Source of the DNA: Alphaproteobacteria bacterium
GTDB taxonomy: Bacteria; Pseudomonadota; Alphaproteobacteria; DSM-16000; Inquilinaceae
Length of the DNA stretch: 64,000 nucleotides
Direction of reading: 5' to 3'
Assembly (NCBI GenBank): GCA_028284045.1
Contig: JANQSN010000062.1
Span: forward strand, 1-64,000
Below, one piece after another: positions 4,626 through 57,594 of the stretch (positions are counted from its first letter, which is position 1; each line of letters starts with the position of its first letter). The position numbers and the translations under genes are program-made. The notes under the pieces are model-generated. The model was not told the DNA's origin. It saw nothing but the letters and a program-made list of their open reading frames with translations, and did not search any database.

Positions 4626-4642
4626 CTGGCCGACCCGTTCCA

Positions 4643-4670: not shown

Positions 4671-4708
4671 GCCGGTGACCCCATCTCGTCCGGCCTCGTC
4701 CCCCGCCC

Positions 4709-5719: not shown

Positions 5720-5735
5720 CGGCGGGGCGCGCGTC

Positions 5736-6665: not shown

Positions 6666-6673
6666 AGGCCGGC

Positions 6674-7674: not shown

Positions 7675-7678
<4 letters not shown>
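6674..7678 (+). CDS. Peptide ABC transporter ATP-binding protein (DppD-like)
   Basis: 334 residues. Walker A is GESGSGKS, Q-loop [12 protein letters not shown], signature [16 protein letters not shown], Walker [13 protein letters not shown], and H-loop VTHDMG. The C-terminal oligopeptide-transporter extension has conserved cysteines ([15 protein letters not shown], then ARCHYPL), which in some relatives bind an FeS cluster. ATG 6674 is chosen because it begins the standard [12 protein letters not shown] strand. The gene overlaps the next one by four bases (ATGA), so the two ATPases are coupled and probably form a heterodimer. Confidence 0.93.
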
Positions 7679-8643
<965 letters not shown>

Positions 8644-10396: not shown

Positions 10397-10603
10397 CGGT
10401 TTCCGATCAGGGTTCGGCTGCGCGGTCGAATCACCACGACCGCCGACTCATATAGCCGTCTGCTGCCGGTTTGTGGCGTAGAATCTGAACAGTGCGACCG
10501 TGCATCGTCCCCAACGGTCGCCCTACCGACCGGTGCGGGTAGGCGACGCCCACCCTTCGACTACCGTCGGTTGGCGTCGGCCGACAGGCTGCCAATACTC
10601 CGG

Positions 10604-12478
10604 CTACGGCGTCCCATCCGTCAGCTCGCGCAGCAGTGCTTGCGCGTCTGCCAGGCTGCGCTCGGCGACGACTCGATAATGGGATGCGCCGGCAGCGCGC
10701 AAGACATCCAGCGCCGTCTGGAGAATGGCCACAGCGGCCGCCACGCGGCTCGCGTCTCCCTCTCGTTCTCCAAGCGCCATCAGGGCGTTGGCCAAATTGT
10801 TCTGGGTCATCGCCCAGTCGATCGGCACACGCGCGCGGGTCAGCTCCTCCAGGGCGGCGCGATAGGCGGCAACCGCCGCCTCCAGGCGCTCCGTACCGCT
10901 TTCCCGCGCCCCAAGCGTCTGAAACACGTTGCCAAGGTTGCCCTGGATCCTTGCCCAGACCAATGGCGCGCGGGCGCGGGTGTATTCCTCCAGCGCGGCA
11001 CGGTAGGCCGCAACGGCCGCCTCCAGGCGCTCGCTGCCGCCCTCCCGCGCGCCCAACGCCTGCAGCGCGGCACCCAGATTGGTCTGGGTCGCCGCCCAGT
11101 CCAGCGGCACCCGCGCGCGGGTGTGTTCCTGCAGGGCGGCGTGGTAGGCGGCAACGGCGGCTTCCAGGCGCTCCGTACCGCTCTCCCGCGCGCCGATTGT
11201 TGCCAGCGCGATGCCGAGGTTGTTCTGGATCGTCGCCCAACCCAGCGGCACGCGCTCGCGGGTGTACTCTTCCAGGGCGGCGCGGTAGGCGAGGACAGCG
11301 GCCTCCAGGCGCTCGGTGCCGCTCTCCCGCGCGCCGATGGTCGCGAGCGCGATGCCTAGGTTGTTCTGGGTCATCGCCCAGTCCATCGGCACGCGCGTAC
11401 GGGGCAGCTCTTCCAGAGCCACGCGATAGGCCGTGACGGCCGCCTCAAGGCGCTTGGTGCCGCTCTCGCGATCCCCAAGCTGTACTAGGGCGTTGCCCAG
11501 ATTGTTCTGGGTGATCGCCCAGTCGAATGGTGCGCGCACACGGGTGCGTTCCGCCAGCGCTGCACGATAGGCGGCCACGGCCGCCTCCAGGCGTTCGGTG
11601 CCGCTCTCCCGCGACCCAAGCACCCGAAGGGCAGACCCTAGACGGTCTTGGGTCGTCGCCCAGTCCATCGGCGCACGCGCGCGCGTCTGCGTTTCCAAGA
11701 CGCGACGGTAAACCGCGATGGCATCGATCAAGGCCGCGTTGTCGCCCCGCTCGTCGCCCTCGCGGTAGAGCGCGTTGGCCTCGCGGGAGAGATAGTCGGC
11801 GCGCGCGCCTTGCGCGTCGACGGGAACAAATTCGGCTGCGATGCGGAACGCGTCGGCCGCGCCGCGGTAGTCCAGCCGCGTCAGCCGCAACTCGCCTCGC
11901 TCGGCGCTGGTTGCGGCGGCGCTGAGCCACCGCTGGTCGGCGACGTCCTGCGCTCGGCGCGCCGCCTCAAGATCGGCGTCTTGCGCCTCGACGAGCAGCG
12001 CCTCCGCCCGGTCGTAGTCACCGTCCTCGACGGCGGCGGCGGCGGCCTCGCGCAGCCGTTCGACCTCCGGATCGGCGGAGCGGAAGAGGCGAAGCTCGTC
12101 CAGGAGAGCCAGATGCCGCTGGGCGATCTCGGCCAGGCGGTCCTGAAGGGCAGCCGCCTCAACCTCGGTCTCGCCCAGCACCTCGAAGAACCGCGCCAGC
12201 GCCTCGACCCTCAGCCGGCTCGTCTCCGGGATCAAGGCCTGCAAATGCAGGATCAGCCGCTCGCGATCGGCGGCCGTCGGCGACGCGGCAAGCCGCACAA
12301 GCTCCACCACCTCTTCGTGCGGCATGCCACAGACGATGGTCAGCGAGCTGTCCGTGACATCGCCGCCGATCGCGGCGGCGCAGTTCGTCGCGGTGACGAC
12401 CAGGCCGTCCGGCTGCGCCACCGCCGGCGCGGCGGTCAGCAGCAAGGCGGCGATGAGGGGTGCAAGGTCACGGGGCAT
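10604..12478 (-). CDS. Exported TPR-repeat protein with N-terminal GGDV..S.TI motif
   Basis: 624 residues from ATG 12478, chosen because it gives a clean signal peptide (PRDLAPLIAALLLTAAPAVA, cut before QPDG). Residues 36-50 read AIGGDVTDSSLTIVC, a short Gly-rich beta-type motif also found in the C-terminal tail of the gene just upstream. A helical region follows (about 52-290, with DYDRAEALLVEAQ and LDYRGAADAFRIAAEF TPR-like units), then about seven near-identical 47-residue repeats of the form LEAAVAAYRAALEE...RVPLDWA.TQNNLGNAL..LGARESGTER. These are NLGNAL-type TPRs, which bind proteins. The gene starts inside the 3' end of the membrane-protein gene (11-base overlap), so the two are coupled. 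No enzymatic domain is seen. Confidence 0.82.
   Translation of the reverse strand: MPRDLAPLIAALLLTAAPAVAQPDGLVVTATNCAAAIGGDVTDSSLTIVCGMPHEEVVELVRLAASPTAADRERLILHLQALIPETSRLRVEALARFFEVLGETEVEAAALQDRLAEIAQRHLALLDELRLFRSADPEVERLREAAAAAVEDGDYDRAEALLVEAQDADLEAARRAQDVADQRWLSAAATSAERGELRLTRLDYRGAADAFRIAAEFVPVDAQGARADYLSREANALYREGDERGDNAALIDAIAVYRRVLETQTRARAPMDWATTQDRLGSALRVLGSRESGTERLEAAVAAYRAALAERTRVRAPFDWAITQNNLGNALVQLGDRESGTKRLEAAVTAYRVALEELPRTRVPMDWAMTQNNLGIALATIGARESGTERLEAAVLAYRAALEEYTRERVPLGWATIQNNLGIALATIGARESGTERLEAAVAAYHAALQEHTRARVPLDWAATQTNLGAALQALGAREGGSERLEAAVAAYRAALEEYTRARAPLVWARIQGNLGNVFQTLGARESGTERLEAAVAAYRAALEELTRARVPIDWAMTQNNLANALMALGEREGDASRVAAAVAILQTALDVLRAAGASHYRVVAERSLADAQALLRELTDGTP
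10745..11731 (-). repeat. Tandem 141-bp coding repeats (about seven units)
   Basis: Within the TPR gene, units of exactly 141 bp (47 codons) are clearest at 11590-11450, 11449-11309, 11308-11168, 11167-11027, 11026-10886 and 10885-10745, preceded by a more diverged unit at about 11731-11591. Adjacent units are similar enough in DNA to indicate expansion by unequal recombination. Unit number may vary between strains. Confidence 0.8.
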
Positions 12479-37733: not shown

Positions 37734-39512
37734 ATGTCGTCCCGCCGCGCCTTCTGGAAACCGGCCCGCCTGAGCGGGCTGGCGCTGCTGCTGGCCCTGT
37801 CGACGCCCGCGGCGCCCCGGCTCGCGGCGGCCCAGGACCATCAGCCGGAAGACGCGACCGGCCGCACGGCCGACCGCCCGGCCGCTGTTGCAGACACCGC
37901 CATGGTCGCCGCCGCCCATCCCCAGGCGGTGGAAGCCGGCCTGGCGGTGCTGGACGACGGCGGCACCGCCGCCGACGCGATGGTGGCGGTCCAGCTCGTC
38001 CTCAACCTCGTGGAACCGCAGTCCTCCGGCATCGGCGGCGGTGCGTTCCTCGTCTGGTTCGACGGCGCCACCGGTACGGTGACCACCTATGACGGGCGCG
38101 AGACGGCGCCGATGGCGGCCGACTCCGCACTGTTCCTCGATGATGCCGGCGAACCGATGGGCTTCTTCGATGCGGTGGTCGGCGGCCGCTCGGTCGGCGC
38201 GCCGGGCACGCTGGCGCTGCTGGAGACGGTGCACGCCGCACACGGCCGGCTCGACTGGCCCCGGCTGATCGCCCCCGCCGCCAGCCTCGCCGAAAGCGGC
38301 TTCACCGTCGGCCCGCGGCTGGCCGGCCTGTTGGCCGGGCCGGCCGGGGCGCGACTGGCGACGTTCCTGACCGCCCGCGACTACTTCTTCCCCGACGGCC
38401 GGCCGCTCGCCGCCGGCGATCTCCGCGACAACCCGGCCTTCGCCGAGACGCTGGCGCGCATCGCCGTGGAGGGCGCGGGCGCCCTCTACGAAGGCCCCGG
38501 CGCCCGGCGGTTGGTCGACGCCGTCGCGACGGCCCCCGGCAATCCGGGCCTCTTGTCGCTGGAAGACCTCGCCGGCTACCGCGTCGTCGAGCGGCGCCCC
38601 GTGTGCCATCCCTACCGAACCTGGCGGGTCTGCGGCATGGGACCGCCCAGCTCGGGCGCGCTGACCGTCGGGCAGATCCTGATGCTGTTGGAGGGCTTCG
38701 ACCTTCCGGCGATGGGGCCTACCGATCCGCTGGCCTGGCACCTGTTCGCCGAGGCGGCGAAGCTGGCCTATGCCGATCGCGGCCGCTACATGGCCGATGC
38801 CGACTTCGTGCCGGTGCCCATCGCCGGCCTGCTCGACCCCGGCTACTTGGCCGAACGCGCACGCCTCATCGATCCGACCGCGGCGATGGCAACCCCGGCA
38901 CCGGCGGGGCGGCCGCCGGGATCGACGGCGCCGGGCGGACGCGACGATGGCGGGGGCCGACCCGGCACCAGCCACGTCTCGATCGTCGATGCCGATGGCA
39001 ATGCGGTCTCCTTGACCACGACCATCGAAGGGGCCTTCGGGTCCCAGCTCATGGTCGACGGCTTCATGCTCAACAACGAGCTGACCGACTTCGCCTTCGT
39101 GGCCGAGATCGACGGCGATCCGGTGGCCAACCGGGTCGAACCGGGCAAGCGGCCGCGCAGCTCGATGGCGCCGACGCTGGTGCTCGGCGGCGACGGCCGC
39201 CTCGTCTTGGTGATCGGCAGTCCCGGCGGCAGCCGAATCATTCCCTATGTTGCCAAGACGCTGATCGCCGTGCTCGATTGGGGCCTCGATATCCAGTCGG
39301 CGATCGAACTCGGCCATGTCGTCAACCGCAACGGAACGACGGAGCTTGAAGCCGGGACGCCGGCGGCCGGCCTCGCCGAAACCCTGTCGGCGCTCGGGCA
39401 CGAGGTGGTGGTGCGCGATCTCAACAGCGGCCTGCACGGCATCCAGGTGACCGCCACGGGGCTGCTGGGCGGCGCCGATCCGCGACGCGAAGGCATCGCC
39501 GCCGGCCGATGA
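37734..39512 (+). CDS. Gamma-glutamyltransferase, exported
   Basis: 592 residues. Basic N-terminus and hydrophobic stretch ([21 protein letters not shown]) form a signal peptide, so the enzyme is periplasmic. Self-processing Ntn-hydrolase: the nucleophile Thr412 is in [20 protein letters not shown], at the large/small subunit boundary. Other landmarks: [38 protein letters not shown] and [12 protein letters not shown]. It would hydrolyse or transfer gamma-glutamyl groups of glutathione or related compounds. The linker before Thr412 is long and Gly/Pro-rich. It overlaps the next, cytoplasmic paralogue by four bases. Confidence 0.92.
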
Positions 39513-41068
39513 CCGGGTTTCGTACGGCCAGCGGGCCGGCGACCCGCGGCATCGTGGCCGCGGGCGACGGTGCGACCGCCGGTGCGGCGGCCGCGGTGCT
39601 CGACGCGGGCGGCAACGCGTTCGATGCGGCCTTGGCCGGCCTCGCCGTCGCCTTCATCGCCGAACCGGTGCTGGCCAGCCTGGGGGGCGGCGGTTTCCTT
39701 CTGGCCATGGCGAACGGCCGGCCGGCCTGCGTCTACGACTTCTTCGCCGCCACGCCGGCCCGGCCGCGTCCCGCCGCCGATCTCGACTTCCGGCCGATCC
39801 TGGTGGATTTCGGCACGGCGACGCAGGAATTCCATATCGGCCTCGGCTCGATCGCCGTTCCCGGCACCGTGGCGGGCCTGTTCGCCGTGCATGCCGATCT
39901 CGGCCGCATGCCCCTGAAGGACATCCTGGCGCCGGCCATCGCGCTGGCGCGCGACGGGACCGTGCTGGCGCCGATGCAGGCCGCCGTCATGGACGCCGTC
40001 GCACCGATCCTCCTGGCCACGCCCGAGGCGCGCGCCGTCTTTGCCGCGCCTGACGCGCAGGATCGCACCCTGGCCGGCGGGCAGCGTCTCGCCTGGCCGG
40101 CGCTGGGCGATGCGCTGGCGGCCCTGGCGGCGGAAGGTCCCGACCTGTTCTATCGCGGCGAGATGGCAGCGGCGCTGGTGGCGGCCTGCGCAGCTGGCGG
40201 CGGGCAGATCACCGCGGCGGATCTCGCCGCCTATCGGGTCGAACGGCGGCCGCCGCTGGTCTGGCACCATCGCGGCGCGCGGCTGACCACCAATCCGCCG
40301 CCTGCAGCCGGCGGGGCGCTGATCGCGCATTGCCTGGCCCGGCTGGCGGAATGGGACATCACGCACGACGGGCTGCACGGCGCTGCCCATGTCGCAGCAC
40401 TGGTCGCCGGGTTCGCTGCCAGCGAGCAGGTGCGCGAGGCCCTGCAGGCGGGCGAACCGCCGGATTGGCTGCGGGCGCTGGACGGCCTGATACCGGCCGC
40501 CCGCGGCACGACCCAGATCAGCGTGCTCGACCGCGACGGACAGGCGGCGTCCTTGACCGTGTCGAACGGCGAAGGCTGCGGCGCCGTGCTGCCGGCGCTC
40601 GGCTACATGCCCAACAACATGCTGGGCGAGCAGGACCTCAACCCGACGGGTTTTCAGCGCTGGACTGGCGGCCGGCGGCTGTCCTCGATGATGGCGCCCA
40701 GCGTCCTCGACCGCACCGACGGCACCCGCGTCGTGCTGGGCAGTGGCGGGTCGAATCGGATTCGATCGGCCCTGGTCCAGGCGGTGGTCAATCTGGTGGA
40801 TTTCGACCTGGACGCCCAAGCGGCAGTCACGGCCCCCCGCCTGCACCTGGAGGCCGGCCAGCTCGACGTCGAACCGGGCATTCCCGACGGCGCGCACGAC
40901 GCGGCCCGAACGGCCGCCGACCGCGTCGTGCGCTGGGAGAGGACCAGCTTCTTCTTCGGCGGCGTGCACGCGGTACAGCGCCATCCGGATGGCCGGCTGT
41001 GTGGCGCGGGCGACCCGCGGCGCGGCGGATGCGTCGCCGGGGGGGTCGAGCGCGACGCCGATCGCTGA
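39509..41068 (+). CDS. Gamma-glutamyltransferase family protein, no signal peptide
   Basis: 519 residues. Ntn-hydrolase of the same family: [25 protein letters not shown] at the start, [13 protein letters not shown], the nucleophile region [21 protein letters not shown] with Thr334, and [19 protein letters not shown] near the end. The residue after the Thr pair is Gln336, where classical enzymes have His, and no signal peptide is seen, so it is likely cytoplasmic with a different substrate (acylases and 'ywrD-like' branches share such changes). The start overlaps the stop of the exported paralogue. Confidence 0.88.
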
Positions 41069-41681
41069 GCCGCATACCGCCCCAGGCCGTCGGCATCCCG
41101 GCGATGGCATCTCGCTGAGACTTCAGTTGTTTATAGTAAACGTTCCGCCATAGTCTTGCGCAAGCAGGGGTTTATCGTTATCACATGGGATCATAGTGGA
41201 TGCTGGGTGTACGGTGTTCGGGGTTGTGGAATGGGTGTCGAACCGATGGCGGCGCTCACACGGAGACCTCAATCAGCCGTTCGGTATCTGCCATGTAGGG
41301 CGTTCGGTGGGCGCGGGTGACCACCATCTGAAATCTGAATTGACCGGCGTTGGTGATGGCAGGGGCTTGCTTCGCCGCCGCCGGATTTTGGGAGGAAGAC
41401 CAAACCAGACCCAAGAATGGGCGGTTTCGATGGATCCGGCCGGCGAAACGGCGGACATCCAACGGCATCGTTACCCGCTACCGACCTCTTGGGCAGGTAT
41501 GGTCAGGCATCGGCCGAGGGCAGGCGCCGGCACGGCGTCGACCCCGGTGCAGGTGCCCTGCCGTCGGGAACGCGTCCGGCGCGGCGGCCGGCAACGACCC
41601 TTGAGGACGCGACGCAATCCGGTCGGATGATGCGCAGATCCGGCCCAATACAACCGTAAATGGGGACTGGCGAGGTTGACG
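41069..41681 (+). promoter_or_regulatory. Long non-coding stretch upstream of the type I secretion locus
   Basis: About 610 bases with no supported gene. 41120-41200 is notably AT-rich for this genome and contains a perfect ten-base palindrome CTTGCGCAAG (41155-41164) and a possible -10 TATAGT at 41132. From about 41200 to the tolC-like start the sequence is GC-rich and could be a long transcribed leader. Open frames present lack ribosome sites and domains. It probably carries the promoter of the secretion operon. Confidence 0.45.
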
Positions 41682-43181
41682 ATGCGGACTCCACTGGCTT
41701 CTTCCCTCACCACCGGCACGGCGCTGACCGTGGTCAACCGCATGCGGTCCCTGGCGCGGCGCTGCCGCGTCGCCGTCGTCGCTGCGGCACTGGTCCCAAT
41801 GGTGTGGATCGGCGCCGCCCAGGCGATGACGCTGCAGGAAGCCGTGGCCTACGCGGTCTCCACCAGTCCCGAGATCCTGGCGGCGGCCTCCAACCGCTCG
41901 GCCATCGACTTCGAACTGCGCCAGGCGCGCGGTCTCTACCTGCCCCAGATCGACCTGGAAGGCTCGATCGGGCCGGGCTGGCGGGATCGGCCGGGTTCGA
42001 CCGGCGACGATGCCGACCACACCATCCTGGTGCGGCGTGAGGTCGCGCTGACCCTGCAGCAAATGGTGTTCGACGGGTTCGCGACGGATAGCGAGGTGGA
42101 GCGCCAAGCCTCCCGGGTCGATGCCGCCGCCGCGCGGGTGCTGGAGCGCTCGGAGTTCGTCGCCGTCAACATCGCCCAGGCCTACATCAACATCCTGCGG
42201 CAGAACGAGTTGGTGGGCCTCGCCCAGAACAACATCCGGGTTCACGAGCAGATCCTCGCCGACGTTCAGGCGCGGGTGAACGCCGGCCGCAGCAGCGTCG
42301 CCGACGTCCAGCAGACCGAGGAGCGGCTGCGCGGCGCGGAAGCCACCTTGATCGAGATCGAGCGGGACTTCGAAGCCGCCCGCATCTCCTATCAGCAGCT
42401 CGTCGGCCTGCCGGCCGGCCAGCTATCGATGCCGCCGGCGGTCGATGGGTCGATCCCGACCTCGCTGGACGGCGCCATCCAGATCGCGTTGAACAACAAC
42501 CCGACGCTGTCGATCGCGCGCGCCGATATCGACACCGCCTATGCCGAGTTCCGCGCGGCCAACGCCGCCTTCTGGCCGACCCTGGACATCGAGGGACGGG
42601 CCAGCACCGGCATCGACATCGGTGGCGAGCGGGGCTCCGACAGCGACATCGAGGCGCTGTTGGTGATGCGCTACAACCTCTATCGCGGCGGCATCGACAC
42701 GGCGAACCGGGAGGAGCAGGTCCGCCGCATCGACGAGGCGCGCCAGGCGCTCCTACAGTTCGAGCGCGAGGTTCAGGAGATCGTCCGCGGCGCCTACAAC
42801 ACGCTGGACCGCTCGCAGCGCCGGCTGGTGCTGTTGCGTGAGCAGGTCGCCGTGTCGGAGCAGGTCCGCCAGAGCTATCTCGATCAGTTTTCGATCGGCG
42901 AGCGGACCCTGCTGGACGTGCTGGATGCAGAGAACGCCCTGTTCAACGCCCGGGTCGACCTGGTCAATTCCGAGTTCGACCTGATGTTCTCGAAGTATCA
43001 GATCATCGGCGCGACCGGACAATTCCTGACGACCTTCAACATCCAGCCGCATCCCGCGGCCGCCGCGATCGCCCGCCAGGACGCCGATGTGCCGGTGACG
43101 CCGGAGTCGGAGACGATGGACCGCAGCGACACGCGGACCTCGCCGTCGTTGAGCCGGGATGCCGTGGGCATCACGCAATAG
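41682..43181 (+). CDS. TolC-family outer membrane protein (LapE-like)
   Basis: 499 residues from ATG 41682; an in-frame TTG two codons earlier is possible. Signal peptide with basic start and VAVVAAALVPMVWIGAAQA. Mature N-terminus MTLQEAVAYAVSTSPEILAAASNR is typical of TolC. Two internally homologous halves of long helices and beta segments (LPQIDLEGSIG..., FWPTLDIEGRAS...) and DQFSIGERTLLDVLDAENALFNA identify the type I secretion branch. It forms the outer-membrane exit duct used by the ABC exporter and adaptor genes downstream. A Thr/Ser-rich C-terminal tail is non-conserved. Confidence 0.92.
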   Translation: MRTPLASSLTTGTALTVVNRMRSLARRCRVAVVAAALVPMVWIGAAQAMTLQEAVAYAVSTSPEILAAASNRSAIDFELRQARGLYLPQIDLEGSIGPGWRDRPGSTGDDADHTILVRREVALTLQQMVFDGFATDSEVERQASRVDAAAARVLERSEFVAVNIAQAYINILRQNELVGLAQNNIRVHEQILADVQARVNAGRSSVADVQQTEERLRGAEATLIEIERDFEAARISYQQLVGLPAGQLSMPPAVDGSIPTSLDGAIQIALNNNPTLSIARADIDTAYAEFRAANAAFWPTLDIEGRASTGIDIGGERGSDSDIEALLVMRYNLYRGGIDTANREEQVRRIDEARQALLQFEREVQEIVRGAYNTLDRSQRRLVLLREQVAVSEQVRQSYLDQFSIGERTLLDVLDAENALFNARVDLVNSEFDLMFSKYQIIGATGQFLTTFNIQPHPAAAAIARQDADVPVTPESETMDRSDTRTSPSLSRDAVGITQ

Positions 43182-43423: not shown

Positions 43424-46090
43424 ATGGTGACGCCCTACCCTTTGAAGGATTCCGGTCCCAGCCGGCCGGACCCGTCGGATACGGGCGACGATGGGGCGAC
43501 GCCGGTGCGGCTGCAGGCCGTGCCGGGGACGGTGGAACCGGCGACGATCGCAGATCCCGACTCGACGGCGGACGCCGCGGCGGTGCCCGACACCGACACG
43601 GATGAAGTCCCCGCCGACCCGTCCATCGAGACAGACATCCCGCCCGAGACCGTCGCCGATGCGGACACGACGGCGGACACCGAAGCGGCGAACGACGGGG
43701 CCGCCCCCGACGCGGCAACCGCGTTGATCTCCGACGCCGTACCGGTGACCGGGACGGACACGCCGGCCCCCACGGCCGCACCGACGTCCCTGGACAAGTC
43801 GGACGTGGCACCCGCAGCGGCGAACCTCGCCGCACCGGCGGCCGAAACCGACGCCGCTCCCGGCTGGGAGTATCAGCCGGGGGACGCCGCCGCCGACCGT
43901 TTCGACCCGCTGCTGCGGTCGCTGATCTCGCTCAGCAAGCATTTCCACCGGCCGGTCTCGTCGGAGTCGGTCGTCGCCGGCCTGCCGCTCCAGGACGGGC
44001 TGATGACGCCGGAGCTGTTCGTCCGGGCGGCCGGGCGAATCGGCCTGACCGCGCGGCTGGTGCGCCGGCCGCTCTCCGGCATCACCAATCTCGTCCTGCC
44101 GGCGGTGCTGCTCTTGTCGGGGCGCCGCGCCTGCGTGCTGATGGGCCGCCCCGACGCCACCACCGCCGAGGTCATCCTGCCGGAGGCGGATGGCAGCACC
44201 GCGCGCGTGCCGCTCGACCAGCTCGCGGCGGACTATGACGGCTTCGCGCTATTCGTGCGCCCGCAATATCGCTTCGACGGCCGCGTCGACGAGGAGCTGG
44301 CGCCGAGCGCCCGGCACTGGTTCTGGGGCACCGTGGCGCGGTTCTGGCCGACCTATGCCGAGATCATCGTGGCGGCGGCGCTGATCAACCTGATGGCCCT
44401 CGCCTCGCCGCTGTTCATCATGAACGTCTACGACCGCGTGGTGCCCAACGAGGCGATCGCCACGCTCTGGGTCCTGGCGATCGGCGTCGGCCTGGCCTTC
44501 CTGTTCGACTTCCTGCTGAAGAGCCTGCGCAGTGCCTTGATCGACAACGCCGGCAAGCGCGCCGACGTCCTGCTCGCCAGCCGGCTGTTCGAGCAGGTGT
44601 TGAACATCCAGATGAAGGCGCGCCCGCCAACCACCGGCGCCTTCGCCAACCAGCTCCGCGAGTTCGAGAGCGTGCGGGAGTTCTTCACCGCCTCGACCAT
44701 CGCGACGCTGACCGACCTGATGTTCGTCGGCCTGTTCGTGTTCGTCATCTACATCATCGCCGGCCCGGTCGCCTATATCGCCCTGGTCGCCGTGCCGGTG
44801 GTCATCATCATCGGCCTGCTGATCCAGATCCCGCTGAACAAGGCGGTCAAGGAGACCCAGCAGGAGGCCGCGCAGAAGCACGCGATCCTGGTGGAGACGG
44901 TCAGCTCGCTCGACACCATCAAGAGCCTGGGTGCCGAAGGCCGCATGCAGCGGGCCTGGGAGCACTTCGTCGGCGTCACCGCCCGCACCAGCCAGAAGTC
45001 CCGCTTCTACTCCTCGCTCGGCGTCAATCTCTCCGGTCTGGCGCAACAGGCGGTCTCCGTCGTCACGGTGATCACCGGCGTCTATCTGATCGGCGAAGGC
45101 GAACTGTCCATGGGCGGGCTGATCGCCGCCACCATCCTCGGCGGCCGCGCGGTCGCGCCGCTGTCCAGCGTCGCCAACACCATGTCGCGCTTCCACCAGA
45201 GCCGGGTGGCGCTGAAGACGCTGAACGACCTGATGGAACAGCCGGTCGAGCGGCCCGCCGACCAGGCCTTCGTCAGCCGGCCGATCACCGGCGGCAAGGT
45301 GGAGTTCCGCGGCGTCGACTTCACCTATCCCGGCGGGGCGGAGCCGGCGATCCGCAAGCTGAACTTCACCATTCAGCCGGGCGAGCGCATCGGCATCATC
45401 GGCAAGATCGGCTCGGGCAAGACGACGGTCAGCCGCCTGCTGATCGGCCTCTATCAGCCCGACGACGGTTCCGTGCTGATCGACGGCGTGGAACTGCGCC
45501 AGTACCACCCCACCGACGTCCGCCGCGGCATCGGCACGGTGATGCAGGATGTCGCGCTGTTCTTCGGCACGGTGCGCGAGAACATCGCGATGAGCTACCC
45601 TTACGCGGACGATGCCATGGTGCTGCACGCCGCACAGCTCGCCGGCGTCGACGACTGGGTCGGGCAGCACCCCCAGGGCTATGGCTTGCCCGTCGGCGAG
45701 CGCGGGCAGAACTTGTCCGGGGGGCAGCGCCAGGCGATCGGGCTCGCCCGCGCTTTGCTGCTGGACCCGCCGATCCTGATGCTGGACGAGCCGACAAGCG
45801 CGATGGACACGGCCTCGGAACAGGCGTTGATCCGTCGGCTGCGCACCATCTCCGACGGGGGCCGGACGCTGATCGTGACGACCCATCGGGCCTCGATGCT
45901 GAAGCTGGTCGACCGCGTGCTGGTCCTCGACAAGGGGCGCTTGGTGATGGACGGCGCCCGCGACGACGTCATTCGTGCGCTGCAACGGCCGCCGGGGCGC
46001 GGCGACGCGGACGCCAAGGTCGCCCAGCAGGGTCATGACGGGCCGTCCCTGACCAAGCCCGTCAGTCCGGGCGGCGGAGGTCCGTCATGA
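43424..46090 (+). CDS. Type I secretion ABC transporter ATPase/permease (LapB-like)
   Basis: 888 residues from ATG 43424; an in-frame TTG at 43409 is an alternative. An unusual acidic, Thr/Ala/Pro-rich low-complexity N-terminus of about 140 residues comes first. Next is a C39-like domain (about 150-275) without the catalytic Cys, as in LapB, which binds rather than cleaves its RTX substrate. Then come six membrane helices (from AEIIVAAALINLMALASPLFIMNVYDRVV) and the nucleotide-binding domain with Walker A GKIGSGKTT, signature LSGGQRQAIGLA and Walker B ILMLDEPTSAMD. It exports a protein directly to the outside with the adaptor and TolC. Its stop overlaps the adaptor start (ATGA). Confidence 0.92.
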   Translation: MVTPYPLKDSGPSRPDPSDTGDDGATPVRLQAVPGTVEPATIADPDSTADAAAVPDTDTDEVPADPSIETDIPPETVADADTTADTEAANDGAAPDAATALISDAVPVTGTDTPAPTAAPTSLDKSDVAPAAANLAAPAAETDAAPGWEYQPGDAAADRFDPLLRSLISLSKHFHRPVSSESVVAGLPLQDGLMTPELFVRAAGRIGLTARLVRRPLSGITNLVLPAVLLLSGRRACVLMGRPDATTAEVILPEADGSTARVPLDQLAADYDGFALFVRPQYRFDGRVDEELAPSARHWFWGTVARFWPTYAEIIVAAALINLMALASPLFIMNVYDRVVPNEAIATLWVLAIGVGLAFLFDFLLKSLRSALIDNAGKRADVLLASRLFEQVLNIQMKARPPTTGAFANQLREFESVREFFTASTIATLTDLMFVGLFVFVIYIIAGPVAYIALVAVPVVIIIGLLIQIPLNKAVKETQQEAAQKHAILVETVSSLDTIKSLGAEGRMQRAWEHFVGVTARTSQKSRFYSSLGVNLSGLAQQAVSVVTVITGVYLIGEGELSMGGLIAATILGGRAVAPLSSVANTMSRFHQSRVALKTLNDLMEQPVERPADQAFVSRPITGGKVEFRGVDFTYPGGAEPAIRKLNFTIQPGERIGIIGKIGSGKTTVSRLLIGLYQPDDGSVLIDGVELRQYHPTDVRRGIGTVMQDVALFFGTVRENIAMSYPYADDAMVLHAAQLAGVDDWVGQHPQGYGLPVGERGQNLSGGQRQAIGLARALLLDPPILMLDEPTSAMDTASEQALIRRLRTISDGGRTLIVTTHRASMLKLVDRVLVLDKGRLVMDGARDDVIRALQRPPGRGDADAKVAQQGHDGPSLTKPVSPGGGGPS

Positions 46091-47418
46091 GCCAGTCCTG
46101 GCAATGGGGCGATCTCGACTTCGCGTCGGAGGTCGGCGCCGCCGTGCGCCGCGGCCCCCATCCGCTGACCCGGCTGTTCCTGCTGACGATCGCGCTGGTC
46201 TTCGGCGGGGCGATCTTCTGGGCCTCCCAGGCGACGCTGGACGAGGTGACCCGCGGCGAAGGCCGGGTGATCCCGTCCACCCAGCTCCAGGTGGTGCAGT
46301 CCCTGGAAGGCGGCATCGTCAAGGAGATCATGGTCGCGGAGGGCGACATCGTCGATCCCGACCAAGTGCTCGTGCGGATCGATGACACGCGCGCCGCCGC
46401 CTCGCTGGGCGAGTTGGAGGTGCAGCGCCGGCATCTGTCGCTGACCATTGCGCGGCTGGAGGCGGAAGCCAACGGATCGGACAGCTTCCACATGCCGATC
46501 CGCCCGGCCAGCGTCACCGACGAGATGCTGGCCAATGAGAGCGAGCTGTTCGAGGCCCGCCGCCGCCAGCTTGAGACCGAGCGCAGCATCCTGGAACAGC
46601 AGATCGAGCAGCGCCGCCGCGAGTTGTCGGAGCTGGAGCTGCAGGAGCAGTCCTTCACCAGCAGCCTCGGCCTGGCGCGCCAGGAACTCTCCATCTACCT
46701 GCCGCTGGCCCAGACAGGCGTCGTCCCGCGGGTCGAGGTGCTGCGCCTGCAGCGCGAGGTCAACGACCTCAGCGGCGAGCTGGAGACCACGCAGAACGCG
46801 ATCCCCCGCGCCCAGGCCGCGATCGACGAGGCGACGCAGCGACTGGAGGAGGTCGACCTGCGCTTCCGCTCCGACGCGCGCATCGAGCTGAACCGGGTGC
46901 GCGCCGAGCTGTCGGTGATCGAGGAGACGATGCGCGGGGCCACCGACCGGGTGGTCCGCACCGATGTGCGCTCCCCGGTCTCCGGCATCGTCAACACGGT
47001 GCACGTCAACACCGTGGGCGGCGTGGTCCAGCCGGGCGAGGCGTTGGTGGAGATCGTGCCGATCGAGGACAGCCTGCTGGTGGAGGCACGCATCCGGCCC
47101 AGCGACGTCGCCTTCCTGCATCCCGGCCAGACCGCGACCGTCAAGATCACGGCCTACGACTTCTCCATCTATGGCGGCCTCGACGGCCGGATCGAGCGCA
47201 TCAGCGCCGACACCACGACCGACGACCAGACCGGCGAGAGCTTCTATCGCGTCATCGTGCGCACCGATCAGAACTTCCTGGGCAACGAGCGCAACCCGCT
47301 GCCGATCATCCCCGGCATGGTGGCCTCGGTGGATATCCTGACCGGCGAGAAGACGGTGCTGGAATACATCCTGAAGCCGATCATCAAGGCACAGACCGAG
47401 GCGCTGCGGGAGCGATGA
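46087..47418 (+). CDS. HlyD-family type I secretion adaptor (LapC-like)
   Basis: 443 residues. One N-terminal membrane helix (TRLFLLTIALVFGGAIFWASQA), a lipoyl half-motif VIPSTQLQVVQSLEGGIVKEIMV, a long coiled-coil (about 110-260, rich in Glu/Arg/Leu heptads), the second lipoyl half VRSPVSGIVNTVHVNTVGGVVQPGE, and a beta-barrel domain ending MVASVDILTGEKTVLEYILKPI. It bridges the ABC protein and TolC. Overlap by four bases with both neighbours places it in the same operon. Confidence 0.93.
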   Translation: MSQSWQWGDLDFASEVGAAVRRGPHPLTRLFLLTIALVFGGAIFWASQATLDEVTRGEGRVIPSTQLQVVQSLEGGIVKEIMVAEGDIVDPDQVLVRIDDTRAAASLGELEVQRRHLSLTIARLEAEANGSDSFHMPIRPASVTDEMLANESELFEARRRQLETERSILEQQIEQRRRELSELELQEQSFTSSLGLARQELSIYLPLAQTGVVPRVEVLRLQREVNDLSGELETTQNAIPRAQAAIDEATQRLEEVDLRFRSDARIELNRVRAELSVIEETMRGATDRVVRTDVRSPVSGIVNTVHVNTVGGVVQPGEALVEIVPIEDSLLVEARIRPSDVAFLHPGQTATVKITAYDFSIYGGLDGRIERISADTTTDDQTGESFYRVIVRTDQNFLGNERNPLPIIPGMVASVDILTGEKTVLEYILKPIIKAQTEALRER

Positions 47419-48125
47419 CGACCCGGCGCGCCGCAGCACCGCGCCCGGCCGGCGCGCGACCCTCGGCAGGACTCCGACGGCCCGGCTTGGCCCTGGTCCT
47501 GGTGCTTGCCATCGCCGCCGGACTGGCGGGGATGGCCGGGCCGGCCGGTGCGGCCAACGGGCTGTTCGGGTCGATGGAGTTCAGCTCGACCAATCTGGCG
47601 GCGATCCCGCAATGGGTCTCCGTCATGGCGCGCATCCGCAACGAACGCGCGACCATCCAGTCCTGCGACCACGATGCCGGTACCTGCCCGACACCGCGGG
47701 TGCAGACCTGGCGGCGCCACACCGACGGCCTGGCCGGCCTGTCCGCTGCGGCGCAGGCCGATGCCGTCAACCGCTACGTCAACAGCATCGTCCCCTACAT
47801 CACCGACTACGAGAACTATGGCGTCAGCGACTATTGGGCCGCACCCTTGGAGTTCCTGCGCCGGTCCGGCGATTGCGAAGACTATGCCATCACCAAATTC
47901 GTCTCGATGCTGGACCTCGGGCACAGCAACGCGTCGATGCGGATCGTGGTGGTCAACGATGTCGTCCGCAACATCGCCCATGCGGTCCTGTCGGTGGATG
48001 TCGGTGACCGCACCTTGATCCTCGACAGCCTGATCTCCAGCGTCACCGACGACACGCGGCTGCCGCAGTACATCCCCCAATACTCGGTGAACCTGGACAC
48101 GCGATGGGCTCACATCATGCGCTGA
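47415..48125 (+). CDS. LapG-like periplasmic transglutaminase-type cysteine protease
   Basis: 236 residues. Signal sequence (LALVLVLAIAAGLAGMAGPAGA) directs it to the periplasm. Bacterial transglutaminase-like cysteine peptidase (BTLCP) landmarks: NRYVNSIVPYITDYENYGVSDYW, catalytic Cys154 in RSGDCEDYAITKF, His in VVRNIAHAVLSV, and Asp in LILDSL. In Pseudomonas, LapG cleaves the N-terminus of a giant surface adhesin and releases the cell from a biofilm; it is normally held inactive by the c-di-GMP receptor LapD. The adhesin substrate is not encoded in this window. Confidence 0.9.
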   Translation: MTTRRAAAPRPAGARPSAGLRRPGLALVLVLAIAAGLAGMAGPAGAANGLFGSMEFSSTNLAAIPQWVSVMARIRNERATIQSCDHDAGTCPTPRVQTWRRHTDGLAGLSAAAQADAVNRYVNSIVPYITDYENYGVSDYWAAPLEFLRRSGDCEDYAITKFVSMLDLGHSNASMRIVVVNDVVRNIAHAVLSVDVGDRTLILDSLISSVTDDTRLPQYIPQYSVNLDTRWAHIMR

Positions 48126-48188: not shown

Positions 48189-50264
48189 ATGAGCGAGACG
48201 GCGCTGCCGCCCCCGCCCCCACCCGATGTCAGCCGGCTGCTCGACCCGAAGGCGGTGGACCGGCCGGCCGCGGTCGGCCAGCGCCTGCGCGTGCGCCTCG
48301 CCATCGCCTTGCCGGTCGTGCTGGTCCTGGTCGCCGGGCTGTCGGCCGGGATCCTGTTGGAGCGGCGCGAGACGCTGTTCGGGGGCTTGCAGGAACGGCT
48401 CGGCCTGCTCGCCGCCGGACGCGCGGCGGTAATCGACGAGCGGATCGACCGGTTGGTGGAGCTGCCGTCCTATGTCATCGACAGCGATGCTTTCCGCCTG
48501 TTCGCCACCGAGGTCGATCTGGTGGCGGCCGACGATCCGCTCGCCGTGCAGTTGCACGACATGGCCCCCTATATGGCCGAAGCGCTGTCGGAGCTGGTGC
48601 GCCAGCGGGGCCTGGTAGCCGCCTATCTGATGGCCCGGGACGGCGAGTCGGTGCTGGCCAGCGGCGCGGCGCCGGAGTTGAGCCCCGACGCCCGGTCACC
48701 CGCCCTGACGGTGTTCGAGAACGGGAACCCGCGCTTCTCCGCGGTCCACCGCCGCGCCGATGGCCTGGCGCTCGACGTCTTCCTGCCGGTCCGCGCCGTG
48801 CAGGCGCCCGCGCCGGACACCCCGGCCGACATCGTCGGGGTCTTCGTGATGACGGTCCCGGTGGCGGAGATGCTGGCGGAATTCGTGCAGCGCCCGATGC
48901 TGGCGGCGCCCGGCGAACGGATCGTGCTGATCCAGACCGATCAGGGGTCGGCGTCGGCCGTGGCGACCGGACGGGCAAACCGCTTCCAGCCGGTCGACTG
49001 GACGCCGGAGGGCGCGATCGGCGCCATGCGGCGCGGCGCCAGCCCGCTCGACGCCCAGCCGGTCTTTTCCGTCGCCGTTTCGGTCGCGCGACTCGGTTGG
49101 TACGTCGTCCAGGAGGTCGACGAGGCGATCGCCATTCGCCCGCTGGTCCGCGCCCGCCTTGTGGTGTTTCTGGTCGCCGGGCTGGTCGTGGTGTTGATGA
49201 CGACCGTCGCCATCGCCCTCTTGTCCGGTCAGGCCAGCGCCTTCAACCGCGCGCTCGCCCGCCAGTACCGCGAGCTGGCCCTGAAGATCGACGCCCACCG
49301 CCGCCTGCTCGACAGCATCAACAGCACGATCAACGAGATGATCGGCCTGAAACGGCCCGACGGCACCTACACCTATGTCAACGCCGCCTTCGTGCGCATC
49401 GTCGACCGGGCGGAAGACCAGATCATCGGCCAGACCGACGAAGGCGTCTTCGGCCATGGCCAAGCGCAATGGCTGGAGCTGGCCGACCGCCAGGCCCTGG
49501 AGACCGGCACCGCGATCCGTGCTGAACAGCGCCTGTATGTCGACGGCACCCTGCACTATCTGGAGATCTCCAAGGTCCCGCTGATCGGAGAGGACGGGCG
49601 CGCCGACGGCATCGTCAGCGTCGCGCGCGACGTCACCGAGCTGGTGGACGAGCGGCGGCGGCGCGAGGCTGCGCTGCACCACACCGTCGACGCCCTGATC
49701 AAGACCATCGAGTTCAGCGACCCCTATCTCAGCGGGCATGCCCGCCTGGTCGGCCGCTTCACGGAACTGATGGCCCGCGGCCTCGGCCTGTCCGCCAGCG
49801 ACGCGCAGACGCTGGAGATCGCCGCCAATGTCGCGCAGATCGGCAAGCTGTTCGTGCCGCGCGACATCATCTCCAAGCCCGGCCGCCTGTCGGCCGAAGA
49901 GCAGGCGGTGATGGAACGGCACATCGACTACGCCCGCGCCGTGCTGGCGGAGATCGATTTCGACCTGCCGGTGCAGTCGACCATCGCGGCGATGTATGAG
50001 CGCCTGGACGGCACCGGCTACCCGCTGCATCTCAAGGGCGACGACATACCGCTGTTGTCGCGCGTCCTCGGCCTCGCCGACGTCTTCTGCGCGCGCATCC
50101 GCCCGCGTTCCTACCGGGCCGGGGTGTCGCCGGACGAGGCACGCACGCTGCTGCGCACCCATTCCAGCCAGAAGTTCGGCGAAGACCTGTTGGAAGTGCT
50201 CGACATCGTCCTGAACACCACCGAGGGCGAGAAGCTGATGGCGCTGGCCCGTACGGAGATCTGA
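48189..50264 (+). CDS. Membrane sensor with PAS and degenerate HD-GYP domain; candidate LapD substitute
   Basis: 691 residues. Membrane helices at about 31-53 and 318-345 enclose a periplasmic sensor region of about 260 residues. A PAS domain (about 375-485) and an HD-GYP domain (about 497-680) follow. The GYP loop is intact (DGTGYP), as are GHARLV and MERHIDYA, but metal ligands are lost: the usual HD pair is Ala549-Gln550 (NVAQIGK), the usual HH pair is Met602-Tyr603 (MYERLDGTGYP), and the late Asp of ADVFDA is Cys634. c-di-GMP hydrolysis is therefore unlikely, and a binding-only receptor role is plausible. It lies 63 bases after the LapG-like gene, where LapD would be expected. Confidence 0.85.
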   Translation: MSETALPPPPPPDVSRLLDPKAVDRPAAVGQRLRVRLAIALPVVLVLVAGLSAGILLERRETLFGGLQERLGLLAAGRAAVIDERIDRLVELPSYVIDSDAFRLFATEVDLVAADDPLAVQLHDMAPYMAEALSELVRQRGLVAAYLMARDGESVLASGAAPELSPDARSPALTVFENGNPRFSAVHRRADGLALDVFLPVRAVQAPAPDTPADIVGVFVMTVPVAEMLAEFVQRPMLAAPGERIVLIQTDQGSASAVATGRANRFQPVDWTPEGAIGAMRRGASPLDAQPVFSVAVSVARLGWYVVQEVDEAIAIRPLVRARLVVFLVAGLVVVLMTTVAIALLSGQASAFNRALARQYRELALKIDAHRRLLDSINSTINEMIGLKRPDGTYTYVNAAFVRIVDRAEDQIIGQTDEGVFGHGQAQWLELADRQALETGTAIRAEQRLYVDGTLHYLEISKVPLIGEDGRADGIVSVARDVTELVDERRRREAALHHTVDALIKTIEFSDPYLSGHARLVGRFTELMARGLGLSASDAQTLEIAANVAQIGKLFVPRDIISKPGRLSAEEQAVMERHIDYARAVLAEIDFDLPVQSTIAAMYERLDGTGYPLHLKGDDIPLLSRVLGLADVFCARIRPRSYRAGVSPDEARTLLRTHSSQKFGEDLLEVLDIVLNTTEGEKLMALARTEI

Positions 50265-53694: not shown

Positions 53695-53776
53695 GTCGTG
53701 CTCGCTCGATTCCAGATAGGATCCTGCTGGACCTCTCCCTTTTTCTGCGCAAGCCTTCCAAGAGCTGTAGAGATTT

Positions 53777-53801
53777 CTCTGTCGGGACCGTCGCGACAGA
53801 G
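53777..53801. promoter_or_regulatory. Inverted repeat upstream of the EVE-KAP gene
   Basis: Perfect eight-base arms CTCTGTCG (53777-53784) and CGACAGAG (53794-53801) separated by nine bases, 67 bases before the GTG start. It could be an operator or a leader hairpin. The 170 bases between the pnt terminator and the start must hold this gene's own promoter. Confidence 0.4.
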
Positions 53802-53868
53802 ACGCGATCGAGTCTCGTGTCGAGCTGACAGGCCAGCGCCGACCGCAGATCGAGGGAGGCGACGGACG

Positions 53869-56800
53869 GTGGAAGGCAGGAACTACTGGATCTTCCAGTA
53901 CACGCACGACACCCGCGTCGACCGGCTGCTGCGGTCGGATCATGCGGGCGACGACGTGCCCTGGCCTTGGAACGAGCGAGGGCCCGAACCCCAACCGGGG
54001 GATCCCGTCTTCTTTCTGAGATGCGGTGAAAGGCCCCCCGCCCGGGACTATCCGCGCGACAAGCCCTGGCGCGGAATCGCCGGCCTCGGCAGCGCTGCAG
54101 GACCGCCGGTGGATCTGGAAGGTGCTCTGAGTCCCCGTGGTATCCCGGTGGCTACGTTGGCCTTCTCTTGGCTAAACCCCTTACCAGACTGGCGGGTCTG
54201 GCACGATCATCGGGTCGCCGACACCAGCGTGCTATTCGACCAACAGGGCACCAACTTCGCGATCACCGCGCCAGCGGCCCAGGCGTTGATCGACGCCATA
54301 GGCATCTACGGCCCTCCTAATCTCCAATCAGCGGCCAAGAGGTCGTTGCCGGACAAGATCAGCCCGGAACAACGGGACGCGCTGACCGAGCTGATCGAGC
54401 GACAGAGCGCCTGGGTCAACAATCATGTGGCCCACAGCCTGCACGCTGCCCGCACCATCAACGACGGATCTTCGAGACCGGCGGAGCTTGCTCTGGCCCA
54501 CCTTCTGACCGGACTAGCCGTGGTCGGTCGGGACCTGCCGTCGGACGCGGTCACCCGCGCCTTGGCGGTCGTTCTCTACGATCTAGCTGTTCCCGAGGGC
54601 GATACCACGCGCTTCCGGCGATTGATGCTTCGCTTGAGCAGTCGTGCAGTAGAACCGGGCGACATCGATCGCCGGAGGGCCGAACCGGTCCAATACCTTA
54701 CGCCACATGCGAACGACGTCTTCCGCGACGCCAAGGACTACTCGGGTAAGAACCCGATCACGGTCGATGCCCTGCTGGCGGCGCTGCTGTCATCCCCGGA
54801 AACGGACAAGGCCTGCGACGTGCTGTTCGCCAGCGACCGAGCCACCCTGATCGACCGGATCATCGAAGGCGGCCGCGAGCGCTGCCCCCCTGCGGACCTG
54901 GAACACTTCGCCCGTTCGCTGGGGCTTTCCGTGCCGGAAGGGGCGACATCCGCAAGGGACAAGGTATCGCCCGAAGAGGCAGGGTCGTCGTCCGGCGAGA
55001 ATGGGTCGCCGAGCGAAGGGAGCGCACCGCCGCCCCCACCATATGAGCCGCCGCTGGGCGATGGCATCGCCGGAACGCTCAACGACACCATTGACCACGG
55101 CAAGGACTTTCTCGACGTCGGACATGAAGCAAAGGCCTTCGCCCGCCTGATCGCCTCGAAGAGCTTCGAGCCACCCTTGGCCATCGGCATCTTCGGCCAG
55201 TGGGGAACCGGCAAGTCGTTCTTCATCGATCGTATCGACAAGGGCCTGCAAGAGATCGAAAATCTCTTCAAACCCGAAGATCTACCCAAAACAACGCTCG
55301 AAGACGCCGAAAATGCGGAAAAGATATTCCACCGCAACATCGTCCAAATCCACTTCAATGCCTGGCACTATATGGAGACCAATGTCTGGGCAAGCCTGGT
55401 CGATGTGATTTTCAGGGATCTGGACGGCTGGCTGCGCAAGGAGATCGCGGAAAAGAACACCGGCGATGAGATCGAGGCTCTGTTCGAGAGCCTCGCAACG
55501 GCGCAAGCCGAGCGGCTGGAGGCGATCGAGACCTATGCCGACCGTCTGCGGGACGTGGAAACCGCCCGCTGGACTCTCCAGAGCGCCGGCAAAGCGGAAG
55601 CCGATCACTGGACCACCATCGCCCGGGAGATCATCGCGCAACCGGAGGTCGGCGCAGCCTTCGACGATGTAGTCGACGCCTTCGGCCTGGAACAACTGTC
55701 CGGCGAAGGCGCCAAGCTGCAGGCGGCGATCGAAGAGACCCGCCATACCGCGTCCGACGCCAGGCTGTTTTGGACATCGCTGCGCGCCCGCGCCGCCTCG
55801 CCGATCCTTTTGGTCCTGCTGACCGTGCTGATGCTGGGCCTTCCCCTGCTTCTCGTCTGGCTGCTGCAGGAGGCGGCGGTAGCCCCGACGGTATCGGCCC
55901 TGACCGGCCTCGCCACGGCTGCCGCGGCCTGGTTCAGCACGATCGCCCTCAGGACGAAGACCGTAGTCGGCGCGCTCCGCCAACTCAGAGCAGCGTTCGA
56001 CGCGGTGGAGCACCAGCGAGCCCAGAAGAGGAAGAGGACGCTTGCCGATTGCGAGACCAGGATCAACGAAGCCCGGACCGCGCTGGCCCATGCCGAGCAA
56101 GCCAGCGCGGTCGCCCGGCGAACGCTGCACGCCGGTTCCGCAGCCGGCCGCGTCGCCGCCTTCATCCGCTCACGCGCGGAAGGCGATACCTACGCCAGGC
56201 ACCTCGGGATCATCGATACGATCCGCCGCGACTTCGAACAACTCACCACGCTGATGAAAGAGACGGATAAAAGAGCTGAGAAAGAGAACAAGATCCTGGA
56301 GAATCAACAAAAAGACCTCGATCGACGAATCGGGGCCCTTCGCGCGCGCTATTTGGGTGACCACGCGAGTAAGGCCGAGCGTGCGCTGTTCGCGCCGATC
56401 GGCGAGGCCCTGGATCGGGTGGAGAAGACCAAGAAGTCAGAGAATCCCCTGAACATCTCGGTCGACCGCATCGTTCTGTTCGTCGACGATCTTGACCGCT
56501 GCCCGCCCGACAAGGTCTACCGGGTGCTGCAGGCAATCCATCTGTTCTTGAACTTCCGGCTGTTCGTCGTGGTCGTCGGCGTCGACACCCGGTGGATGGA
56601 GACATCCCTGATCCGAGAGTTGGGCGACCTGGTCAATGGCACCCGTGGCACCACCGCGCAGGACTATCTGGAGAAGATCTTTCAGATCCCCTACTGGACC
56701 CGCCGCATGGACGCGACGGCCAGCCGCGGGTTCGTGAAGGGCGTCCTGGACAAGATCCCAGCCGAAGCTTCCATCACAGCACCCCCGACCAGCACCGAAC

Positions 56801-57594
56801 CGGGATCGGGACCGCCGCCGGATGACAGCCGACCGCCCCCGGACCTCAGTTCAGATGCTGAGATGGAGACCAGCACCCAAACCGTCGATGAGCCGGCCCG
56901 AACCGATCGAGCTGTCCAACCAAAAGACCCTCTTGCGACCCAAGAAGACTTGGGTGCCGGGCAACCGAACCCGGAGGTACAGACTCAAAGCAACCTTCCG
57001 AACGGCCAGAACCAGACGCCGATGGCAACGCGCCCCGTGGTCATCACGCAGCGCGAACGCCTGATGATCCAGCGGTTGGCGCCCCAAGCCGGCCGGTCGC
57101 CCCGCCAACTCCTGCGCTTCGTCAATGTCTATGGCTTGATCAAATCGGTGACGGATGCCGGCGGCGCGCCGCTCCTCGACTTGGAGAACGACCCGACCAC
57201 CTGCCAAGCCCTGCTGGCACAGCTCGCCATCGCCACCGGCTCGCCGGTCTCGGCACGCCTCTACTTCGACGCCCTCGCAAAATGCACGGGCAACCTCAGC
57301 AGATTTCGAAATCTGATAGAGTCTTCAAGATCAAGCTCGGCCGTGCCTGAGGGCGAGACGAACAACGTCTACGCCGTCCTGCGCGTGGCCTTCGCCGGTG
57401 CCGGTCGACATGACGACACGACCGACGAGAAGGGGTTCTGGCCGGACGCGGACGACGACAGCGCCCGCGACTTTCTGATCAAGCTGCAGGAGACCGCCCC
57501 CATCGCCCGCCGCTACACCTTCGCGGCGATCGATGCGGTTCTGGCCTTGCCGACGCCGAAAGAAGCGCCGGACGGGGGGCGAGCCGGTGCCTGA
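53869..57594 (+). CDS. EVE-like domain fused to KAP-family P-loop NTPase; candidate defence protein
   Basis: 1241 residues from GTG 53869, chosen because it follows GAGGGAGG and begins an EVE/PUA-like domain (residues 2-150 or so: NYWIFQYTHDTRVD, GDPVFFLRCGE, WRGIAGLG). EVE domains read modified bases. The middle (about 150-420) is helical, with ALLAALLSSPETDKACDVLF resembling Clp N-terminal repeats, then a Ser/Pro linker. The KAP NTPase follows: Walker A GQWGTGKS near 443, KAP motif FNAWHYMETNVWASL, two membrane helices inserted at about 643-665 and 677-697, a coiled coil, and Walker B VDDLDRCPPDKVYRVLQAIH near 872-890. After a charged linker comes a C-terminal helical part (RSPRQLLRFVNVYGLI). 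It is a single gene with lower GC than its neighbours. Confidence 0.85.
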   Translation: MEGRNYWIFQYTHDTRVDRLLRSDHAGDDVPWPWNERGPEPQPGDPVFFLRCGERPPARDYPRDKPWRGIAGLGSAAGPPVDLEGALSPRGIPVATLAFSWLNPLPDWRVWHDHRVADTSVLFDQQGTNFAITAPAAQALIDAIGIYGPPNLQSAAKRSLPDKISPEQRDALTELIERQSAWVNNHVAHSLHAARTINDGSSRPAELALAHLLTGLAVVGRDLPSDAVTRALAVVLYDLAVPEGDTTRFRRLMLRLSSRAVEPGDIDRRRAEPVQYLTPHANDVFRDAKDYSGKNPITVDALLAALLSSPETDKACDVLFASDRATLIDRIIEGGRERCPPADLEHFARSLGLSVPEGATSARDKVSPEEAGSSSGENGSPSEGSAPPPPPYEPPLGDGIAGTLNDTIDHGKDFLDVGHEAKAFARLIASKSFEPPLAIGIFGQWGTGKSFFIDRIDKGLQEIENLFKPEDLPKTTLEDAENAEKIFHRNIVQIHFNAWHYMETNVWASLVDVIFRDLDGWLRKEIAEKNTGDEIEALFESLATAQAERLEAIETYADRLRDVETARWTLQSAGKAEADHWTTIAREIIAQPEVGAAFDDVVDAFGLEQLSGEGAKLQAAIEETRHTASDARLFWTSLRARAASPILLVLLTVLMLGLPLLLVWLLQEAAVAPTVSALTGLATAAAAWFSTIALRTKTVVGALRQLRAAFDAVEHQRAQKRKRTLADCETRINEARTALAHAEQASAVARRTLHAGSAAGRVAAFIRSRAEGDTYARHLGIIDTIRRDFEQLTTLMKETDKRAEKENKILENQQKDLDRRIGALRARYLGDHASKAERALFAPIGEALDRVEKTKKSENPLNISVDRIVLFVDDLDRCPPDKVYRVLQAIHLFLNFRLFVVVVGVDTRWMETSLIRELGDLVNGTRGTTAQDYLEKIFQIPYWTRRMDATASRGFVKGVLDKIPAEASITAPPTSTEPGSGPPPDDSRPPPDLSSDAEMETSTQTVDEPARTDRAVQPKDPLATQEDLGAGQPNPEVQTQSNLPNGQNQTPMATRPVVITQRERLMIQRLAPQAGRSPRQLLRFVNVYGLIKSVTDAGGAPLLDLENDPTTCQALLAQLAIATGSPVSARLYFDALAKCTGNLSRFRNLIESSRSSSAVPEGETNNVYAVLRVAFAGAGRHDDTTDEKGFWPDADDDSARDFLIKLQETAPIARRYTFAAIDAVLALPTPKEAPDGGRAGA

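Follow-up and report, generated by a model that had tools for sequence, protein, structure and literature searches.

A DvhD-type pseudo-HD-GYP protein in the LapD position of an alphaproteobacterial type I secretion operon: a probable inside-out receptor of c-di-GMP

In Lap-type adhesin systems, the periplasmic protease LapG is paired with LapD, a receptor composed of a LapD_MoxY_N periplasmic domain, a HAMP domain and an inactive GGDEF-EAL part. The window analyzed here (64,000 nucleotides, positions 1 to 64,000 of contig JANQSN010000062.1 of an alphaproteobacterial assembly) carries a Lap-type secretion operon in which the gene following lapG encodes a degenerate HD-GYP protein. This raises the question of whether such a protein can stand in for LapD. 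The earlier note, made from the letters alone, had placed TolC, LapB-like, LapC-like and LapG-like genes in front of the receptor gene. This order was borne out by profile searches, each of the four scoring over its cut-off, and all five genes lie on one strand:

41682..43181, plus strand: TolC-family outer-membrane channel in the LapE position (ORF 41676-43181, first ATG at 41682; TIGR01844, 297.8 bits)
43424..46090, plus strand: LssB/LapB-type T1SS permease/ATPase, start uncertain (TTG 43409 or ATG 43424; TIGR03375, E=1.3e-287)
46087..47418, plus strand: HlyD/LapC-type membrane-fusion protein, overlapping lapB by 4 bp (TIGR01843, 425 bits)
47415..48125, plus strand: LapG/DvhG-type periplasmic BTLCP protease, Peptidase_C93 (PF06035; matches to LapG entries of the PDB)
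48189..50264, plus strand: DvhD-type receptor, in the order transmembrane helix, periplasmic dCache-like domain, transmembrane helix, PAS, pseudo-HD-GYP (phmmer and Foldseek matches to DvhD structures)

The lapC and lapG genes likewise overlap by 4 bp, and 63 bp separate the end of lapG from the receptor gene. The protease has an intact catalytic triad (C154-H189-D204) and calcium motif (D153/E155), residues which are also present in 58 of 59 aligned LapG relatives, and it matches solved LapG structures (4u65, E=1.9e-16; 4fgo, E=1.4e-15). Its score with the NCBIfam LapG model is 83.6 bits, below the 320-bit equivalog cut-off; judged by these matches, it is a LapG relative outside NCBI's LapG equivalog. 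Near its N-terminus is a hydrophobic segment resembling a signal peptide. The operon is immediately preceded by a tandem pair of gamma-glutamyltranspeptidase genes (37734-41068), and pyridine nucleotide transhydrogenase genes follow the receptor gene; the cluster therefore encodes no adhesin. Elsewhere in the window (53698-57594) we observed a gene for a 1298-aa protein with a split match to KAP-family P-loop NTPases.

The receptor ORF starts with ATG and encodes 691 amino acids. Pfam matches, hydrophobic stretches and an AlphaFold2 model (pLDDT 83.5, pTM 0.47) agree with the architecture that had been read from the sequence, i.e. two membrane helices, a periplasmic domain, PAS and HD-GYP. In the model, two long helices flank a periplasmic part of mixed alpha/beta structure, and the PAS domain and a helical HD-GYP domain follow the second helix. 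All of the following features lie on the plus strand:

48291..48356: first transmembrane helix, residues ~35-56 (hydrophobic stretch inside predicted helix 28-91)
48357..49148: periplasmic dCache-like domain, residues ~57-320 (Foldseek to 9rc2, TM-score 0.86 by target length, 27% identity)
48483..48518: S99DAFRLFATEVD110, the most conserved periplasmic stretch and a candidate LapG-docking helix (conservation window; predicted helix 100-111)
49149..49223: second transmembrane helix, residues ~321-345 (hydrophobic stretch inside predicted helix 317-380)
49329..49646: PAS domain, residues 381-486 (Pfam PAS_4, PF08448, E=1.1e-17)
49695..50183: pseudo-HD-GYP domain, residues 503-665 (Pfam HD_5, PF13487, E=4.9e-35, well above the curated cut-off)

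Alignment with the active HD-GYP phosphodiesterases PmGH (4mcw), PA4781 (4r8z) and V-cGAP3 (5z7c), with which the protein shares the HD-GYP fold and a GYP-type motif, revealed the loss of metal ligands which these enzymes keep, at exactly the residues that the earlier note had named: the HD pair is replaced by Ala549-Gln550, the HH pair by Met602-Tyr603 and the late Asp by Cys634. The GYP motif (G610-Y611-P612), the RPRSYR motif, H517 and H578 are retained.

The position of the gene beside T1SS and LapG genes is that of lapD in Pseudomonas fluorescens, and by inference both receptors would use c-di-GMP inside the cell to restrain LapG outside it. The proteins themselves differ, since the Pfam matches of the window receptor comprise only PAS and HD families, with no LapD_MoxY_N (PF16448), HAMP or GGDEF-EAL among them. 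A genuine lapD elsewhere in the genome, which the earlier note recognized as a finding that would speak against its reading, was also sought: a profile search for PF16448 gave no match in any of 29 DvhD-bearing genomes, the window's own among them. This result covers proteins that this one periplasmic-domain model can recognize; a GGDEF-EAL protein with another periplasmic part may be present. The model worked in a phylum-wide positive control, in which 70 of 249 genomes matched; matches with E<1e-20 occurred only outside the Alphaproteobacteria, and alphaproteobacterial ones were weak (best 3.4e-10).

The best PDB sequence matches of the receptor are crystal structures of DvhD. In phmmer searches, the PAS/HD-GYP structure 9rc0 matched over residues 367-684 (E=4e-69), the HD-GYP domain with bound c-di-GMP (9rbz) gave E=3.8e-51 and the DvhD periplasmic domain (9rc2) E=1.1e-11. 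The same three entries account for the six best Foldseek PDB matches of the receptor model, with TM-scores by target length of 0.77, 0.83-0.85 and 0.86. DvhD (DVU1020/BfsD) of Desulfovibrio (Nitratidesulfovibrio) vulgaris Hildenborough has a periplasmic dCache domain, carries SQ in place of HD and MN in place of HH, and binds c-di-GMP without hydrolyzing it in the presence of any ion tested (PMC13090378). According to the account given there, which cites PNAS 2024 121:e2320410121, DvhD controls the LapG-like DvhG in a c-di-GMP-dependent manner in a reconstituted P. fluorescens system.

The two proteins share (i) the periplasmic dCache domain, two membrane helices, PAS and inactive HD-GYP, the three domains matching in both fold and sequence, (ii) the loss of both HD and HH (AQ and MY in the window protein), and (iii) the location of their genes directly after T1SS genes and a LapG-type protease gene. 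They differ in that identity over PAS/HD-GYP is ~39% and the host of the window is an alphaproteobacterium, in that D. vulgaris DvhG carries a membrane anchor while the window LapG looks secreted by means of a signal peptide, and in the lack of an adjoining adhesin gene in the window operon. On these comparisons the window receptor is a clear relative of DvhD, and would be a further member of this recently described type of biofilm switch.

We conclude that the window protein is very probably a DvhD-type inside-out receptor of c-di-GMP that restrains LapG. By homology with D. vulgaris DvhD, we infer that c-di-GMP at high concentration would bind to the pseudo-HD-GYP domain and would not be cleaved, because the catalytic metal ligands are lost. 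Binding would alter the helical stalk that joins PAS to HD-GYP; the two membrane helices would relay this change to the dCache-like domain in the periplasm, and that domain would restrain the neighbouring LapG-type protease. A fall in c-di-GMP would free LapG to remove the retention part at the N-terminus of an adhesin secreted by the type I system, and the adhesin would thus be released from the TolC channel.

The proposal that an inactive HD-GYP protein substitutes for LapD is thus supported by homology to an experimentally studied protein; it was right in substance, and it had already been demonstrated for a homologue, since DvhD binds c-di-GMP and controls DvhG. The novelty that the earlier note had implied does not hold: the mechanism is published for DvhD (PMC13090378), and for that reason the novelty of the window receptor is modest. 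The text of that paper treats Desulfovibrionales, and its class-level distribution figure may already show alphaproteobacterial members.

The pocket bears on which ligand is read. In DvhD, mutations of R650, Y652/R653 and P567 clearly hurt the binding of c-di-GMP or stabilisation by it (PMC13090378). The alignment revealed that their counterparts are kept in the window receptor as R640, Y642/R643 and P557, and Y523, L577 and Y621 of DvhD are also kept (Y513, L567 and Y611). Changes were found at the contacts M646 (R636), K582 (Q572) and E668 (S659), and at the bridging residues K520 (S510) and R569 (D559); M646A and K520E alone had small effects in DvhD (PMC13090378). Arginine occupies the M646 position in about half of the family.

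These differing contacts, which include the base-specific E668→S659 and M646→R636, would fit a receptor that controls LapG but reads mainly 3'3'-cGAMP, pGpG, another nucleotide or a signal perceived by the PAS or periplasmic domain. PAS and dCache domains are commonly sensory, which also favours such a reading, and DvhD itself binds 3'3'-cGAMP as well (Kd about 501 nM; PMC13090378). We nevertheless consider it improbable, given that R640, Y642, R643 and P557, whose counterparts clearly matter in DvhD, are kept, and that the E668 position varies across the whole family while most of the pocket is conserved.

On the periplasmic side, residues 99-110 form the top-scoring 12-residue conservation window and fall on predicted helix 100-111. 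For DvhD, AlphaFold 3 modelling led to the proposal that DvhG docks on helix alpha1' (PMC13090378), and the conserved helix of the window receptor seems to correspond to that helix.

Turning from the window receptor to its relatives, we scanned one genome per species and counted proteins with a strong match to at least part of the HD-GYP domain. This yielded 61 relatives (L051-L111), from Kiloniellales, other Alphaproteobacteria, Desulfovibrionales, Desulfuromonadales, Desulfobacterales and a few others; none was found among plasmid records. The neighbourhood is conserved as well: in 50 of the 52 relatives with at least 1 kb of upstream sequence, lapG lies directly upstream on the same strand, accompanied in 46 by lapB and lapC, an adjacency far beyond chance. 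One exception, L068, does have a lapG, which is overlapped because the receptor ORF was called too long; the other, L094, has no lapG at this position. In the latter locus (3965-7887), from a Rickettsiales MAG, a TolC gene immediately precedes the DvhD-like gene. Across a spread of 385 alphaproteobacterial genomes, nine had a receptor scoring at least 500 bits, and eight of these lie 51-135 bp from a same-strand Peptidase_C93 match.

Several individual loci deserve mention. L177 (G580:C109) and L178 (G407:C1) encode DvhD-like proteins of 1126 and 885 aa, compared with the usual ~700 aa; about 850 bp ahead of each gene, the same strand carries a Peptidase_C93 match. The operon of L051 (JANQQD010000222.1), a MAG labelled Anaerolineae, is nearly identical to that of the alphaproteobacterial MAG L052; this contig is probably mislabelled or misbinned.

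Adhesins near other DvhD loci have a beta-rich N-terminal domain ending in ..ETAAG or a variant, and ends of this type fit the LapG/DvhG cleavage consensus, [T/A/P]AAG (PMC13090378). Large ORFs at seven loci (L057, L059, L061, L066, L088, L101 and L105) show this N-terminal retention domain with ..[E/A]TAAG at its end; a segment rich in glycine and a Y..D motif come next. When retention domains of adhesins from other DvhD loci were aligned, the alignment (A2) matched 11 of 15 DvhD genomes (G011, G014 and G021 weakly), and gave no match in the window's genome (G000), which is in 63 contigs, or in its two nearest relatives (G009 and G010). A single-sequence query with the retention domain of the nearer relative G014 did not match the window's genome either, and none of its large RTX/VCBS ORFs that we read has a retention-type N-terminus. 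The LapA retention model NF033682 also gave no match there, a result that is uninformative because the control genomes, which were unlikely ones, matched only below the cut-off. Two contig ends of this genome, C25:1-1381 and C59:41440-45498 (both minus strand), carry near-identical VCBS repeats and may be the halves of one large adhesin gene broken in assembly; the visible N-terminus of this gene has no retention domain.

Loss of the catalytic residues, together with the failure to find an adhesin substrate in the window's genome, could be taken to mean that the receptor gene is in decay or codes for an unrelated pseudo-enzyme, plays no part in controlling LapG and lies beside lapG incidentally. 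This is very unlikely, as the ORF is full-length, the gene order is conserved in 50 of 52 loci across Alphaproteobacteria and several deltaproteobacterial orders, the binding pocket is conserved and a homologue has been functionally tested. Less likely still is an active c-di-GMP phosphodiesterase encoded beside lapG by chance, as the HD_5 score and the retained GYP, H517 and H578 might suggest, because other residues stand in place of HD, HH and the late Asp, a situation similar to that in the non-hydrolysing DvhD (PMC13090378), and ligand replacement is common to the whole family.

This replacement can be followed in 64 aligned rows, where HD reads SQ in 60, AQ in three and a gap in one, HH reads MN, MH, MY, IN or MT, and GYP is present in 64/64. 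In the tree, a branch that unites the window protein with its relatives (100/99) stands apart from the active HD-GYP phosphodiesterases. When the tree is rooted with the sister group described below (clade B), the deltaproteobacterial receptors form one clade (100/100) nested among the alphaproteobacterial ones. The nesting would fit transfer from Alphaproteobacteria to deltaproteobacterial lineages, yet monophyly of the alphaproteobacterial receptors is not rejected (p-AU 0.28), and this direction was therefore not adopted.

The window's genome contains a second pair of this kind, in which a LapG-like gene (C46:61740-62108) is divergent from a pseudo-HD-GYP gene (C46:59218-61266); the region C46:59218-62108 corresponds to positions 9200-12114 of locus L013. 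The encoded receptor is homologous to the DvhD group over its full length (656 columns; hhalign E=4e-90) and has HD changed to LN, H578 to S, HH to VQ and GYP to GWP. It belongs to clade B, which is sister to the DvhD group in trees of both the HD-GYP domain (100/99) and the full-length protein (100/100). The nine members read have MN or LN for HD and S or Q for H578, and the GYP tyrosine is replaced in eight of them (GWP, GMP, GQP and others). Like the window receptor, clade B members are encoded beside a Peptidase_C93 gene, but in divergent arrangement and with more residues lost.

Among the 68 lower-scoring hits in the 385 surveyed alphaproteobacterial genomes, 41 have an opposite-strand Peptidase_C93 match within 1.7 kb. 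These 68 are a mixture, because the 13 that were read split into eight of clade B and five that group with DvhD. The clade B receptor-protease pair is common in the surveyed Alphaproteobacteria, and our literature search found no paper describing this receptor together with its second LapG-like protease. It is conceivable, though rather unlikely, that DvhD-type and clade B proteins make up a larger family of pseudo-HD-GYP controllers of LapG-like proteases, in which clade B has lost further nucleotide-contact residues and responds to some signal besides c-di-GMP in controlling its protease. Two parallel protease switches would then operate in one genome.

As for the DvhD-type receptor, the occurrence of its gene set in Kiloniellales, other Alphaproteobacteria and several deltaproteobacterial orders indicates that DvhD-style control of adhesins is not peculiar to sulfate reducers.
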